Origin: Rhodopila globiformis
GTDB taxonomy: Bacteria; Pseudomonadota; Alphaproteobacteria; Acetobacterales; Acetobacteraceae
Assembly (NCBI RefSeq): GCF_002937115.1
Contig: NZ_NHRY01000114.1
Coordinates: forward strand, 1-64,000
Direction of reading: 5' to 3'
Length of the DNA stretch: 64,000 nt
Below the pieces are notes generated by a model. That model saw only the letters and a program-made list of their open reading frames with translations. It ran no database searches and was not told the DNA's origin. A program made the position numbers and the translations under genes. Below, one piece after another: positions 3,560-63,021 of this stretch; the first letter of the stretch is position 1; the number at the start of each line of letters is the position of its first letter.

Positions 3560-3689
3560 CGCCGTCTTTACGGATGCATCGTTACCCTTGTGCCACGCAT
3601 TTCGCCGCGGGTGAAGAAGACAGGTTGCCGTGGCAGCCCCATATGGGCCAAGACACGCCCGGCGGCGTTCGGGTGACTCGAAGGACACG

Positions 3690-4745
3690 ATGGGACCTGT
3701 TCTGGGGATTGAGGCTTCCTGCGATGAGACCGCCGCCGCGGTCATCGACGGCGACGGCCATATCCTTGCCGAAATGGTGCTCAGCCAGCTTGCGGAGCAT
3801 GAGCCGTATGGCGGGGTCGTGCCGGAGATCGCTGCCCGCGCCCATCTGCGCTACCTGCCCGACCTGGTGCGCCGGGCCATGGCGAACGCCAACGTCTCCT
3901 ATAAGGAACTCGGTGGCGTCGCGGCGACATCGGGGCCCGGGCTGATCGGGGGCCTGATCGTCGGGTCCCAGTTCGGCAAGGGCATTGCCATCGCCCATGA
4001 TCTGCCCTTTGTCGCCGTCAATCATCTCGAAGCGCACGCCCTGACCGCCCGGCTGCCTGGCCTGGTCGATGACGGAGCGCCCTTCCCCTACCTGCTGTTC
4101 CTGCTCTCGGGCGGCCATTCGCAATGCATCGCGGTGATGGACCTTGGCCAGTACCGGCGTCTCGGCGGCACCGTGGACGATGCCGTCGGCGAGGCGTTCG
4201 ACAAGGTTGCGAAGCTGCTCGGCGTTGGCTGGCCGGGCGGCCCGGCACTGGAAAGGATCGCCGCAGAGGGTGACCCGGACCGGTTTCCCTTCCCCAGGCC
4301 CATGCTCCGCCGCCCCGGATGCGACCTGAGCCTGTCGGGGCTCAAGACCGCGGTGGCCCAGGCGGTGGCCAGGCTTGGCGATGGACCTCTCGAGCGCGCG
4401 CAACGCGCCGATGTCGCGGCGAGCTTCCAGCAGGCCATCGTGGACGTGCTCGCGGACAGGGCGGTTCATGCCATGACAATGATGCGCGAGCAGTTCGCCG
4501 ATGCCGATCTGATCGTGACGGCCGGTGGGGTTGCCTCGAACAAGCGGGTGCGCGCGGCATTGTCCGACGCGGCGGGCACATGTGGCTTTCGTCTGGTCGC
4601 GCCGCCGATCCGGCTTTGCTCGGACAATGCGGTCATGGTTGCCTGGGCTGGGCTCGAGCGGCTGCGGCGTGACCTCCGGGACGACGTAAGTGCTGCGACG
4701 CTGCCGCGATGGCCGCTCGAAGCGCTATCGCAGCGGTCGGCATGA
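3690..4745 (+). CDS. tsaD: tRNA threonylcarbamoyladenosine transferase TsaD
   Basis: Transfers the threonylcarbamoyl group to A37 of ANN-decoding tRNAs, working with TsaB and TsaE. The N-terminus LGIEASCDETAAAV is the ASKHA family signature. The metal-binding motif NHLEAHALT is present near residue 110, followed by LLSGGHSQ, and GGVASNKR lies near the C-terminus. The length of 351 residues is normal. The ATG at 3690 is chosen because AAGGA lies at 3681-3685 and the upstream frame is not conserved. It ends in an ATGA overlap with rlmJ and leads the plus-strand housekeeping run. Confidence 0.95.
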   Translation: MGPVLGIEASCDETAAAVIDGDGHILAEMVLSQLAEHEPYGGVVPEIAARAHLRYLPDLVRRAMANANVSYKELGGVAATSGPGLIGGLIVGSQFGKGIAIAHDLPFVAVNHLEAHALTARLPGLVDDGAPFPYLLFLLSGGHSQCIAVMDLGQYRRLGGTVDDAVGEAFDKVAKLLGVGWPGGPALERIAAEGDPDRFPFPRPMLRRPGCDLSLSGLKTAVAQAVARLGDGPLERAQRADVAASFQQAIVDVLADRAVHAMTMMREQFADADLIVTAGGVASNKRVRAALSDAAGTCGFRLVAPPIRLCSDNAVMVAWAGLERLRRDLRDDVSAATLPRWPLEALSQRSA

Positions 4746-5749
4746 ATTACCGCCACGCCTACCACGCCGGGAATTTCGCGGACTGCTTCAAGCATGCCTT
4801 GCTGGCAGACCTTGTCGATGCGTTCGCGCGCAAGCCGACGCCTTATTTCGTGCTGGATACACATGCTGGAGTGGGCCGGTATGATCTGGAGGATGACGCG
4901 GCCCGGCGGACTGGCGAAGCGGACGCAGGCATCCGGCGCCTCCTGGCAAGCCAGCCGGCTCCTCTCAGGCGCTATCTGGATCTGGTGAGGAGCCTTGGCC
5001 TCTATCCCGGATCGCCCACGCTGATCAGGGCCCTCATGCGGCCCGCAGGCGCTAACTTAGCGGGCGAGCGGCACGGTCGTTGCCATACCGTCATGCCGGG
5101 CGCAGGCCCGGCATCCACGCCTTGCGATGCCGAACCAGACAAAGGCGTGGATGGCGGCCCTTCGGCCGCCATGACGACAGGAGCAGATCGCCGTGCCCGA
5201 CCCCCTAAGTCAGCGCCTATGCTCATGCGCCCAGCCGATCGGCTGGCGTGCTGCGAACTTCACCCGGAAGACGTCATCCCCCTGCGGCGGCTGTTTCATC
5301 ACGATCCCCAGGTCGAGGTGCATTTCCGCAGCGGATGGGACGCCTTGAAGGCCCTCCTGCCGCCCCGGGAGAAGCGCGGACTGGTTTTCATCGACCCACC
5401 GTTCGAGAGCCAGGACGAATTTGCCGTTGTGACGGAAGGGTTGAAGCGTGGACACAGCCGCTTCAGCCACGGTGTGTTTGCCGCCTGGTACCCGATCAAG
5501 CAGCGCGCCGCGGTCCGGGGCTTTCACGCGAATCTCAAGATGACAGGAATCCGCGATATCATCGCGATCGAACTTTACCTGCGGGCCCCGACCAACGCCG
5601 AGCGGCTCAACGGATGCGGCTTGCTGGTGATCAACCCGCCCTACCGGTTTGCGGAACAGGGGCAGGCGATCGCCGACGCGGTCCTCCGTGGTCTCGGCCA
5701 GGACGAAAGCGGTGCGGGTGTTGACGTAATCAGGATAGCAGATGAGTAA
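4742..5749 (+). CDS. rlmJ: 23S rRNA (adenine2030-N6)-methyltransferase RlmJ, with a 63-residue repeat-derived insert
   Basis: An AdoMet-dependent methyltransferase for 23S rRNA A2030. The start MNYRHAYHAGNFADCFKH is characteristic. ELHPEDV belongs to the AdoMet-binding fold, and FIDPPFE is the catalytic DPP(Y/F) motif. The gene is coupled to tsaD (ATGA) and overlaps gpsA by 8 bp. The product is 335 residues, whereas family members such as the E. coli enzyme have about 280. The excess is explained by an in-frame palindromic repeat at 5041-5221. With its 8-bp direct duplication (CTCATGCG at 5033-5040 and 5222-5229) it adds 189 bp, exactly 63 codons (about residues 99-161). The insert sits between a surface helix and the ELHPED strand. 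Frame and catalytic motifs are intact, so the protein may still work. Confidence 0.93.
   Translation: MNYRHAYHAGNFADCFKHALLADLVDAFARKPTPYFVLDTHAGVGRYDLEDDAARRTGEADAGIRRLLASQPAPLRRYLDLVRSLGLYPGSPTLIRALMRPAGANLAGERHGRCHTVMPGAGPASTPCDAEPDKGVDGGPSAAMTTGADRRARPPKSAPMLMRPADRLACCELHPEDVIPLRRLFHHDPQVEVHFRSGWDALKALLPPREKRGLVFIDPPFESQDEFAVVTEGLKRGHSRFSHGVFAAWYPIKQRAAVRGFHANLKMTGIRDIIAIELYLRAPTNAERLNGCGLLVINPPYRFAEQGQAIADAVLRGLGQDESGAGVDVIRIADE
5041..5221. repeat. MITE-like palindromic repeat, family A, complete copy inside rlmJ
   Basis: An element of about 181 bp. Imperfect terminal inverted repeats are AGGCGCTAACTTAG (5047-5060) and CTAAGTCAGCGCCT (5205-5218). An internal palindrome has arms of about 34 bp (about 5090-5124 and 5142-5176). 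Direct repeats CTCATGCG lie at 5033-5040 and 5222-5229. The same architecture is found at 50256-50434. No transposase is encoded, so it would be non-autonomous. It is read through in frame as part of RlmJ. Confidence 0.85.
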
Positions 5750-6704
5750 GGTTACAGTCGTCGGCGCCGGAGCCTGGGGCACGGCCCTGGCAATCCAGGC
5801 AGTGCGGGCCGGGCACAGCGTCACCCTGGTGGCCCGTACAGCGGAGGCGGTGGCTGCCATCGCGCGAAACCACGAGAATGGCCGGTTGCCGGGCGTGCGG
5901 CTTCCCGACTCGGTCACCGTCATGGATCAGCTTCCCGATGCATCGGATCTGCTCGTCTGGGTGGTGCCGACCCAGCATCTTCGCACGTCACTCCTGAAGC
6001 TGCGGCCGCCGGCCGGGGGCATCGTGATCTGCGCGAAAGGCGTGGAAGTCGGGACCCACATGCTGCCGCTGGAGGTCGCCGGCGACGTCACGGGCGACCG
6101 CCCGCTCGCGGTCCTGAGCGGCCCCAACTTCGCGCACGAGATCGCCGCTGGCCTTCCGGCCGCCACGGTCGTCGCCAGCGTGAACGCGGATCTGCGGGAG
6201 CAGGTGCGCGTCGCCTTCGGGACAAGCACGTTTCGCCTCTATGGCAATGATGATCCCATCGGCGCCCAGCTCGGCGGCGCGGCGAAGAACGTCATCGCCA
6301 TCGCCGCGGGTGTCGTCATCGGCGCCGGCCTGGGCGAGAACGCGCGCGCGGCGCTGGTAACCCGCGGGCTGAGCGAGTTGTGCCGTCTCGCCGTTGCGCT
6401 CGGCGGGCGGGCGGAGGCCATGACGGGACTGTCCGGACTGGGCGACCTGATGCTGACCTGCACCGGGATGTCGAGCCGGAATTTCAGCCTTGGCCATGCG
6501 CTCGGGCAGGGCCGGAGCCTTGAAGCGATCCTTGCCGGCCGGACTGCCGTGACCGAAGGCGTCGCCACCGCCGCCGCCCTGGTCGCGCGGGCGGGAAAGG
6601 TCGAGCTGCCGATTTGCCAGGCGGTGGCCGAGTTTCTGTCGGGAAGGAAAACCCTCGATCAATCGATCTCAGAACTCATGTCGCGTCCTCAACGGGATGA
6701 GTGA
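5742..6704 (+). CDS. gpsA: Glycerol-3-phosphate dehydrogenase [NAD(P)+]
   Basis: Reduces dihydroxyacetone phosphate to sn-glycerol 3-phosphate for phospholipid synthesis in the cytosol. The N-terminal Rossmann motif is VVGAGAWGTALA. LSGPNFAHEIA and LGGAAKNVIAIAAGV (catalytic Lys region) follow, then GLSGLGDLMLTCT in the C-terminal helical domain. The length of 320 residues is normal. The ATG overlaps the end of rlmJ. The tsaD-to-gpsA proximity is common in alphaproteobacteria. Confidence 0.95.
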   Translation: MSKVTVVGAGAWGTALAIQAVRAGHSVTLVARTAEAVAAIARNHENGRLPGVRLPDSVTVMDQLPDASDLLVWVVPTQHLRTSLLKLRPPAGGIVICAKGVEVGTHMLPLEVAGDVTGDRPLAVLSGPNFAHEIAAGLPAATVVASVNADLREQVRVAFGTSTFRLYGNDDPIGAQLGGAAKNVIAIAAGVVIGAGLGENARAALVTRGLSELCRLAVALGGRAEAMTGLSGLGDLMLTCTGMSSRNFSLGHALGQGRSLEAILAGRTAVTEGVATAAALVARAGKVELPICQAVAEFLSGRKTLDQSISELMSRPQRDE

Positions 6705-8361: not shown

Positions 8362-9363
8362 ATGCAGCGTGTCTTCTCCGGCATTCAGCCGTCCGGCATC
8401 CCGACCCTGGGCAATTACCTCGGCGCCCTCCGCAACTGGGTGAAGTTGCAGGACGATCATGAGTGCATCTGGTGCGTCGTCGATTTGCATGCGATCACGG
8501 TCTGGCAGGAACCGGAAGCCCTGCGCCGGCAGTCGCTGGAGATGACGGCTGTCCTGCTGGCTTGCGGCGTTGATCCGAAGCGGCACATCCTGTTCCTGCA
8601 ATCGGCGGTCCGGGCCCATGCGCAGCTTGCCTGGATGTTCAACTGCGTCGCCCGTCTCGGCTGGCTGAACCGCATGACGCAGTTCAAGGACAAGGCGGGC
8701 AAGGATCGCGAGAATGCCTCGTCAGGCCTGTATGTCTATCCCAACCTGATGGCGGCGGACATTCACGCCTATCACGCGACCCGGGTGCCAGTCGGCGACG
8801 ATCAGCGGCAGCACCTGGAACTGGCCAACGACATCGCCCAGAAGTTCAACCATGACTACGGGGTGGAGTTCTTCCCCGCCATCGAGCCGCTGATCATGGG
8901 ACCGGCCGCCCGCGTCATGAGCCTGCGCGACGGCACCAAGAAGATGTCGAAATCCGATCCCTCCGACCAGAGCCGCATCAATCTGAACGATGACAGCGAC
9001 ACGATTGCGCTGAAGGTTCGCCGCGCCAAGACCGATCCGCTCCCGCTGCCGGCGGATGTCTCGGAACTGGCCGATCGGCCGGAGGCGAGGAATCTGGTGG
9101 GGATTTTCGCGGCGCTGGCGGAAACCGACCACGCCGCGGTGCTGAAGGACTACGGCGGACAGGGCTTCGGGACGTTCAAGACGGCGCTGGCGGACCTGCT
9201 GGTTGAGCGGCTGTCGCCCATCGCCGCCGAGACGCGGCGGCTTCTGGACGATGAGGCGGCACTCCTGCAGGTTTTGGCGTCCGGCGCCGAACGGGCTGAG
9301 GCCATCGCGAATCCCATCGTCCGTGAGGCCGAGCGCCTGGTTGGCTTCGTGAACGTCCGCTGA
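8362..9363 (+). CDS. trpS: Tryptophanyl-tRNA synthetase
   Basis: A class I aminoacyl-tRNA synthetase charging tRNA-Trp. The N-terminal [17 protein letters not shown] contains the HIGH-equivalent nucleotide-binding motif. [10 protein letters not shown] is the KMSKS loop. The length of 333 residues is normal. It starts 4 bp after the murJ stop and converges on the LpoA-like gene downstream, with a hairpin between them. Confidence 0.96.
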
Positions 9364-49780: not shown

Positions 49781-50981
49781 AAGAGCCCACGGCGGGATAC
49801 GGTCGCCTGCCGCCGGACACTGCCATCATGAAAGGGGAACGACCCTGCCCCACCCATAGGCTCGGTTGAGCGGAGCACTGCCGGACCCGCCGTTCGGCAA
49901 TGAATGGCAGCGAGCCGGCCGCGATGCAGGGGCCGGTTCATCTCCGATTATTTTGCTTGGTCGTTCCACTTGCCTGCGACTGGATAAGGCGTAGGGCACC
50001 CGGGACCGGAGCCTGACCAGCCGAGCCACCTCGGCGCGTCCTGAAAGCCGGCAACATGTCTCTTCCAGAAAGCTGCGAAAAATGCCGATCGGCATGGCGA
50101 CGCTGCTGGCTGGCTTGTGTTGAAGCGGCGTAAGAAACCGCGCGAACCTGTCCGGGGAACACGGTAATTGGCCATGCAGTTACAACCGGTGGCTTTGATA
50201 CAAAGACGCGAATCCACCAAGACTGGTGTTATCCTGGCGGTTGTCAGGGGATGGCGCCATTGGCGTTAAAATAGCAGTACAGCCGGCGCGATTGCACTGT
50301 CGTCATGGCGGCCGAAGGACCGCCATCCACGCCTTACGGTGCCGACATCAGCAGAAGGCGTGGATGGTGAGCCTTCGCCCACCATGACGTTGCGGAAATG
50401 GCCGTGCCCCCAACCCCCTATTTTAACGCCTATGAGGGGATGGCCCTGTCTCATGCAGCGATACGGCCCATGACTCCGAAAGCGCCCCAGAAGCAGCCTC
50501 GGCACGGCGGATACACAACCGCATACTGAACCGTCATTCAGCTTCGATTCCTCAGGCCGTGCTCAGCGCCGCGTGCCTGGAAGCCCGGGCATGCCGCGGG
50601 TGCCTTGGTCTGTTCGTGATCGAAGCGGTCAGGCAGCGGGAGAACGTAGCGCTGGTCTGGCTGCCGGCTGAAGCGCGAAAGCTGTACCGCGCCTGCATCT
50701 TTGTTACTTTGCCGGCCATAGGCCAGCCACCGGCACAAAACATTCGAGCGAAAACAACACATTATGTCCTTATATCTGATAATTCGCATATTCAGAAAAT
50801 ATATCTCGATACGTCCCGAACGGCCTTGATTGAATAACCTGTTTGTAATAGATGTCGCCCCGAAACGCGGATGGATCGGCCCGCTTCCGAAAGATGTTGG
50901 CCGTGGCTGCCGGCGGTTTGGTTCGCTGCAAATAATTTCGCAGGGTACCGAGCCGAATAATACGTTGATGGAGACGTCCCG
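49781..50981. other. 1.2-kb intergenic region with one complete repeat element
   Basis: No supported gene. It contains the complete family A element (50256-50434). A stretch at 50740-50860 is clearly AT-rich for this genome and is a likely promoter region for the cytochrome operon that starts at 50982. Confidence 0.55.
50256..50434. repeat. MITE-like palindromic repeat, family A, complete intergenic copy
   Basis: A 179-bp element with perfect 13-bp terminal inverted repeats, GGCGTTAAAATAG (50262-50274) and CTATTTTAACGCC (50418-50430). It is flanked by the direct repeat AGGGGATGGC (50246-50255 and 50435-50444). The internal palindrome (about 50301-50392) matches the copies at 312, 5090 and 47463. 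It has no coding capacity for a transposase. Confidence 0.85.
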
Positions 50982-54311: not shown

Positions 54312-54342
54312 AGCTTTGGCCGGCCCGATCCGTTCCCCCTCC

Positions 54343-54418
54343 GTCATGGCCGGGCGTGTCCCGGCCATCCGCGCTTCGACGGGGCGGGGTAGATGGCCGG
54401 GACACGCCCGGCCATAAC
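54343..54418. repeat. Palindromic repeat, family B
   Basis: Arms of 27 bp (54343-54369 and 54392-54418) are complementary with one mismatch, around a 22-nt loop. Each arm contains its own smaller palindrome (GGCCGGGCGTGTCCCGGCC). The same unit is present at 62936-63013. It lies between the Otr cluster and the exporter gene. Confidence 0.85.
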
Positions 54419-54713
54419 GATAGGGCGACGACCCATGTCCTGTTGCCCTTTAACCTGGCGCCAATGCGGCTTGTTCGGGCCACCGGTGGCGGCACATGCC
54501 TGCCGGGATGGCACGCCCCTGACGATGGCCGGCGAACCCCGCGGATCAACCACAGGTCATATCGGGTCCGCGGTAGCATACCGTAATCTTGATCGCAGTC
54601 GCCAAGCCTGCCATCCAGGCGGCTGGCAGGATCGTCGTCGCGCCGGCCTTCCAACCCGTCTGTCCCACTTGCGGCGGAGTCGCTGTGCGATCATCCGCCA
54701 TGGAGCAACCGTC

Positions 54714-62806: not shown

Positions 62807-62935
62807 CCGCGGGTTGCGGCGTGATGGAGTAAACGCCATCGGCGCTGGCATAAGATAGAGGTCAGGATGGTGCCTCCCCGTCATGGTCGGGCGTGTCGGG
62901 ATAACCGAAGTGGCGGCGCCAGGTCGTCTCCCTAT

Positions 62936-63013
62936 CGTCATCGTTGGGCGTGTCCCGGCCATCTGCGTTTCAACGGTGCAGGGTGGATGGCCGGGACACG
63001 CCCGGCCATGACG
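62936..63013. repeat. Palindromic repeat, family B, second copy
   Basis: The left arm at 62936-62963 and right arm at 62986-63013 are nearly complementary. The right arm matches the copy at 54392-54418 almost base for base. A further half-unit (GTCGGGCGTGTCGGG at 62886-62900) lies just upstream, so the region holds one full and one decayed unit. Confidence 0.82.
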
Positions 63014-63021
63014 AGAGGCCG

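Follow-up and report, generated by a model that had tools for sequence, protein, structure and literature searches.

The rlmJ gene of Rhodopila globiformis, which lies in a stretch of 64,000 nucleotides analysed as a whole (the window), is interrupted by a repeat that has terminal inverted repeats and a flanking direct repeat and that brings no stop codon into the reading frame. We consider it probable that this insert is an IS231-type (IS4 family) MITE carrying an inverted pair of CGTC-tagged REPs, and that it is tolerated as a floppy loop of RlmJ with activity kept. Membership of the protein in the RlmJ family (PF04378) follows from the profile and from the catalytic motifs: D218 and P219 of the DPP motif and Y3, H5 and K17 of motif X are all present and are invariant columns among 51 RlmJ sequences. 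The NCBIfam scan of the rlmJ ORF returned no family. The mechanical ORF list starts this ORF at 4709; we chose the start at 4742 from the relatives, whose RlmJ begins in the locus alignment with the same MNYRHA[YF]HAGN as the window protein. The upstream neighbour (3630-4745) we take, from its translation, to be tsaD-like, and the downstream neighbour (5742-6704), named in the same way, is presumably gpsA-like. The features are as follows.

4742..5746, + strand: rlmJ coding frame with insert, 335 codons (Pfam PF04378, E 1.1e-64, two stretches)
5747-5749, + strand: rlmJ stop codon
5033..5043, + strand: target-site duplication, left copy, CTCATGCGGCC, 10/11 identical to 5222-5232 (family duplication length 11)
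5044..5221, + strand: element of 178 bp, IS231-like MITE with a REP-pair core (alignment and consensus of 17 full-length copies)
5044..5060, + strand: left terminal inverted repeat CGCAGGCGCTAACTTAG (family end CATAGGCGCTAACTTAG), 2 mismatches to the family end
5089..5117, + strand: CGTC-tagged REP 1 with CGTC, 9-bp stem, 4-nt loop and CCA tail (inverted repeats I1, I10)
5148..5176, - strand: CGTC-tagged REP 2, in opposite orientation, with CGTC, 9-bp stem, 4-nt loop and CCA tail (inverted repeats I1, I9)
5205..5221, - strand: right terminal inverted repeat CATAGGCGCTGACTTAG, differing from the family end at 1 position
5222..5232, + strand: target-site duplication, right copy, CTCATGCGCCC, followed by sequence common to relatives
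50258..50434, + strand: second family member in the window, with sub-family end CATTGGCGTTAAAATAG, REP pair at 50301-50389 and flanks alike in 11/12 bp

Relatives have an empty site at this place in rlmJ. We aligned 28 loci, namely the window, a fragment that stops short of the site (L058) and 26 loci reaching across it. The insert was found in none of the 26: these relatives read YPGSPTLIRALLRPADRLACCELHPED at the site, where the window protein has 63 extra residues between ALM and LMRPADRL. RlmJ is 269-284 residues long in 24 of the 26, the other two being a contig-cut protein of 257 residues (L042) and one of 328 residues that contains a different insert (L032). In a second alignment, all 50 homologues were gapped throughout the 55 columns that correspond to window residues 104-158. 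The absence of residues 99-161 from relatives, which the first-pass annotation had proposed to look for, was thus borne out, as were its statements that 189 bp make 63 codons with no stop (confirmed on the rlmJ ORF) and that RlmJ minus the insert, at 272 residues, is near the family length, as in most relatives. The relative G008 is rich in the repeat family, yet its rlmJ is empty; therefore the rlmJ insertion probably postdates the split from G008, or was lost there.

The repeat is dispersed in its own genome, where it gave at least 86 HSPs on both strands (40 of 474 candidates scored). A profile of the repeat hit 75 loci of this genome, some of them overlapping in coverage, at 88 non-overlapping places. 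The 17-mer of the end occurred there, with up to 3 mismatches, 76 times forward and 80 times in reverse, against 3 and 4 for a reversed control; it was also abundant in G008 (43 + 34) and G043 (37 + 29), and its count was near control in most of the other 26 genus members. No match to the repeat was found in plasmid records. Folding of the window copy as a single strand gave z = -5.5 for DNA and -7.0 for RNA, and none of 200 shuffles was as stable. Dispersal and folding together put the repeat far outside chance. The 17 full-length copies align across the whole element with 0-3 gap columns, and the window copy, identical to their consensus at 141 of 177 positions (79.7%), is among the two most diverged. 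Their consensus is open in one phase only, and in 21 of 48 elements the length plus 11 is divisible by 3 (nine of these are 178 bp long). Thus an in-frame landing requires the right phase and orientation and no special history. No ORF of at least 80 aa crosses the second member in the window.

Because the family is dispersed in the genome, the ends of the element can be set. Among 48 candidates bounded by terminal inverted repeats, perfect flanking repeats were 11 bp long in 11 and 12 bp long in four, and repeats of 6-10 bp or 13-14 bp were found in none. Flanks were alike in at least 10 of 11 positions in 14 of the 48, as against 4.8% between flanks of different elements; the 34 candidates below this level include nested-copy mispairings, which were left in the set. 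The family therefore ends in CAT...ATG with the duplication outside, and the element of 178 bp plus its 11-bp duplication make the 189 bp (residues 99-161). A 9-bp reading of the duplication that we had entertained was dropped. The first-pass annotation had drawn a 181-bp element with an 8-bp duplication of CTCATGCG, as this one copy suggests, but which the family contradicts (no perfect 8-bp flank anchored at the ends among the 48); since 181 + 8 and 178 + 11 give the same sum, its argument about the frame holds despite the wrong ends. The inverted repeats that it placed at 5047-5060 and 5205-5218 are real but incomplete, lying inside the termini at 5044-5060 and 5205-5221.

The core of the element agrees with a described class of repeats. 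CGTC-tagged REPs are defined by a CGTC tag, a hairpin starting with A-T, a short loop and a CCA tail, and occur mostly as head-to-head pairs (as described in PMC3733652). The segments at 5089-5117 (+) and 5148-5176 (-) show the same tag, the A-T pair first in the stem, the same tail and the inverted arrangement, and the host is likewise alphaproteobacterial. With a 9-bp stem and a 4-nt loop, they fit none of the four described CGTC families exactly (stem 8/loop 4, stem 8/loop 5 and stem 9/loop 5 in the account of PMC3733652). Unlike the dimers of that account, moreover, the pair here is a passenger in a larger repeat that has its own ends.

Many of the landing sites resemble REPs as well. We rebuilt empty sites by joining the flanks of the 16 elements with a duplication of at least 9/11; 11 of the 16 duplicated targets were palindromes with at least 8/12 symmetric pairs, readable as CGTC REP loops, a threshold that was picked after viewing the list (a stricter REP-site rule gave 6 of 16). 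The left duplication had G at positions 2 and 3 in 13 of the 16, C at position 9 in 13 and C at position 10 in all 16. The sites in rlmJ (4/12 pairs) and in a glycosyltransferase gene (5/12) do not read as REP loops. Two further non-REP sites have 11/11 duplications, of which one looks intergenic (L126) and the other lies at the 3' end of an esterase-like frame (L135), both judged on the ORF list only. As far as its sequence tells, the element both carries REPs and often lands in putative REPs. Elsewhere in the window, at 54331-54430 and 62931-63018, are two CGTC-REP-like inverted pairs with the loop GGGACACGCCC / GGGCGTGTCCC, which serves as a target elsewhere in the genome.

The ends point to a particular group of transposable elements. 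For the IS231 subgroup of the IS4 family, Table 1 of PMC2266710 gives CAT-------AA--TAA as the ends and 10-12 bp as the length of the direct repeats. The family end CATAGGCGCTAACTTAG has seven of the eight fixed IS231 letters, the last fixed A being G, the window copy has five (left) and six (right), and the end CATATGCGCTAACTTAA found in the genus member G044 has all eight; the duplication length of the family also lies within 10-12 bp. IS231 prefers the target GGGN5CCC, which resembles the G2/G3 and C9/C10 bias of the left duplications here. Among the matches listed, the string GGGN5CCC was not found in the open-licence literature.

MITEs of the IS231 type depend on a DDE transposase with a YREK motif. 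No whole transposase with the ends of the MITE was found in the sequences covered: the own genome has 48 PF01609 matches, and none turned up around the 30 that were examined, none around 30 of the 103 matches in ten genus members and none attached to the ends in G044. Thus the assignment of the mover to IS231 stays a resemblance in ends and duplication length. At two contig ends of G044 (L185, L186), CATATGCGCTAACTTAA stands beside GGGN5CCC-like flanks and runs into an ORF start, and seven other G044 contig ends (L187-L193) carry a second kind of end. Such broken repeat ends are as expected for a multi-copy IS split by assembly, and these IS-like ends possibly belong to autonomous relatives of the MITE. 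A search of plasmids with the 30-aa ORF start gave no partner, nor did a search of 249 family genomes (best E 0.13), and the G044 ends had no match in plasmid records. Four candidates were rejected: L224 (9-bp duplication) and L245 (10-bp duplication) are other elements with CA ends unlike those of the MITE family, L254 from another genus has a MITE-type end only at its contig end, and L195 of G012 belongs to dispersed repeats and is not an IS. The own genome also contains 27 equal-score matches to the end of PF01609 (for example C59:24-164 and C229:24-164), many at contig starts, which are probably an abundant IS collapsed in assembly; a scan of 11 of them (L174-L184) showed no MITE-type end within 5 mismatches.

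The repeat is found in frame in other genes too. There are 41 stop-free frames that run across a profile hit; five were scanned with Pfam, of which two had domains, and the unscanned frames were judged by eye (for L140, L147 and L151 the longer flank alone was scanned). The two cases, which answer the suggestion of the first-pass annotation to search the genome for other ORFs with the repeat, are PhnH and a glycosyltransferase. PhnH (PF05845 in two stretches; L150, G000:C183 ~9126-9329) holds a CGTC-REP pair in frame and has ~58 extra residues relative to eight relatives; no recognisable CAT ends were seen in this insert. The glycosyltransferase (L138 2522-2621; G000:C245:12221-12320) contains an in-frame copy shortened to 100 bp by internal deletion, which has CAT ends and a 9/11 duplication, the 100 + 11 bp making 37 codons; the matches of genus relatives break at the insert place, and two relatives in the alignment have a short linker there. 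This copy is read in the same phase as that in rlmJ (..RADSVGGRHG...ARPTKSAPM and ..GANLAGERHG...ARPPKSAPM respectively). End and phase are thus shared by two copies, and the third case, in PhnH, is a bare REP pair. With an empty site in relatives, dispersed copies, a target duplication and these two further genes, the view of the insert as a mobile palindromic repeat is upheld.

A different insert was seen in the RlmJ of another species, G019 (L032/L086; L032 ~2060-2245). It adds 56 residues in frame at the point that follows residue 85 of the window protein, which is ~14 residues upstream of the insertion site described here, and its sequence is palindromic, the 50-nt arms matching at 80%. 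About 60 bp of it recur at 81-82% in six Azospirillum plasmid records, and the RlmJ of L050 has 11 extra residues at the same place. Inserts thus seem to be accepted repeatedly in the part of RlmJ that separates the helical subdomain from motif II.

Several observations bear on what the insert does to the enzyme. Between the rlmJ flanks of the window and of G008, dN was 0.151 and dS 1.25, a dN/dS of ~0.12 in which dS is near saturation. The counts of unique changes were 15:11, 16:11 and 14:15 with the outgroups L037, L040 and L044 respectively, and of 45 columns invariant in 26 relatives none was changed in the window RlmJ. A relative-rate count with L034 (35:6) was set aside: L034 is no outgroup, its distance to L033 (dS 0.66) being smaller than that between L033 and the window. 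From these comparisons the RlmJ flanks look constrained. Retention of the open frame is weak evidence of selection, since in a neutral simulation the consensus phase was open in a fraction of 0.45 after 35 substitutions and of 0.38 after 40, the window copy having 36. An AlphaFold model from 51 sequences kept the RlmJ fold and had a mean pLDDT of 87.2, with residues 111-132 and 137-160 below 50; by blocks of ten residues, the values were 94-98 across the fold, 84 at the start, 65 and 85 at the edges of the insert and 41-46 inside it, which may only reflect that no other alignment row covers the insert. The best PDB match of the model in Foldseek was E. coli RlmJ (4blw, TM 0.90 by target), whose helical subdomain spans residues 47-98 and whose motif II loop is L119-D123 (as given in PMC3814359). 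The insert maps to chain positions ~105-110, where the chain enters the strand running to motif II. In a Rossmann-like fold this end would lie away from the cofactor face, which makes a tolerated floppy loop the likeliest outcome for RlmJ. The hairpin in the mRNA (-110 kcal/mol) might slow translation.

Other readings of the data were weighed against the one proposed. It is unlikely, in our view, that what moves is the CGTC-REP pair itself, by means of a RAYT-like or other enzyme, with the outer inverted repeat just a surrounding palindrome. REP pairs inside longer palindromes have been reported (among the cases of PMC3733652), and PhnH of the same genome holds such a pair without recognisable CAT ends; but the 11-bp duplication lies outside the CAT...ATG ends and not beside the REPs, the 17 copies align over the full element, and the 100-bp copy, from which most of the REP pair is gone, retains both ends and a 9/11 duplication. 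The enzyme rather than the element is at issue if rlmJ is decaying but still open, the insert having abolished a dispensable RlmJ. The gene is dispensable in E. coli, the inserted copy is one of the two most diverged, and its 63 residues lie near motif II in the chain; the low dN/dS, the lack of a rate excess with three outgroups and the unchanged invariant columns speak against decay, which we hold to be improbable. Two compensating gaps relative to the consensus each look common to another copy (L002 and L006), so that they are not evidence of selection on rlmJ.

Splicing or ribosome bypass that cuts out or skips the insert at the RNA level and leaves a normal mature RlmJ would suit so stable an RNA hairpin, but the frame is open and removal is not required, the Rfam scan of 4600-5900 returned nothing at the gathering threshold, and R. 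conorii proteins with an N-terminal RPE-1 are expressed in vivo (as stated in PMC3733652); we give this very little credence. Even less can be said for an artefact in which halves of rlmJ were joined through a repeat. The assembly is a draft of 278 contigs, but the two sides belong to a single gene, continue in the same frame and are joined with a target duplication. The closest of the other copies matches at 83% along most of its length (up to 89% over ~100 bp), and the rlmJ flanks occur once in the genome among the matches listed, where a second rlmJ would rank high.

We therefore return to insertion of an IS231-type MITE as the preferred reading, which can be set out as follows. A predicted DDE transposase, acting in trans, would have recognised the CAT...ATG ends and pasted the element into rlmJ, duplicating 11 bp. 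As element and duplication make 63 codons with one stop-free phase, an insertion in the right phase would be read through, and the landing site would be a loop between a helix and the strand leading to motif II. The likely product is an RlmJ of 335 residues, 63 of them in a floppy loop, that would stay active.

Parts of this picture have precedents. Rickettsia palindromic elements are likewise, by their description, palindromic repeats in frame in genes of varied function, and the comparison drawn by the first-pass annotation was apt, the core here being a pair of CGTC REPs, among which PMC3733652 also counts RPE-4 and RPE-6. The host differs, and here, unlike in those elements, one can see CAT ends and a target duplication of 11 bp, most duplicated sites being readable as REP loops. 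The suggestion that the process might be new outside Rickettsia does not stand, as intragenic CGTC and GTAG REPs were given for several other species in 2013 (again in PMC3733652), and MITE fusions have also been published (an example is PMC10969869). ISRm22, an IS4-family element of Sinorhizobium, likewise inserts at the symmetry axis of REPs and duplicates 6 bp (from the description in PMC1525189), as against 11 bp here, in a MITE that itself carries REPs. The family resembles the IS231 subgroup in its CAT-N7-AA-N2-TA ends and in the duplication of 10-12 bp listed in PMC2266710; the element differs in having no transposase, and none with its ends was found in the loci scanned in the assembly. 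The titles and starts of abstracts in the open-licence literature gave no report of the repeat family, which is weak evidence of absence. Non-autonomous cassettes of IS231 are known as MIC231. In-frame coding palindromes and intragenic CGTC REPs are thus already published, and what is new is an IS231-like MITE that carries REPs and targets REPs.

To our knowledge, no transposase is known for CGTC-tagged REPs. The readable ends, the definite duplication length and the empty sites point to a named enzyme group and make the question testable. A genome of the Acetobacteraceae with at least three in-frame repeat inserts joins the recorded examples of selfish DNA lengthening proteins, and rlmJ is a host gene for which an activity test exists. 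As a tentative extension, CGTC REPs may travel as cargo of IS231-type MITEs aimed at the loops of other CGTC REPs, in a frame-neutral unit (178 bp + 11 bp = 63 codons, one stop-free phase) that genes hit by mistake tolerate and turn into new stretches of protein. If true, REPs, IS4-family MITEs and RPE-like coding palindromes would be parts of a single cycle.
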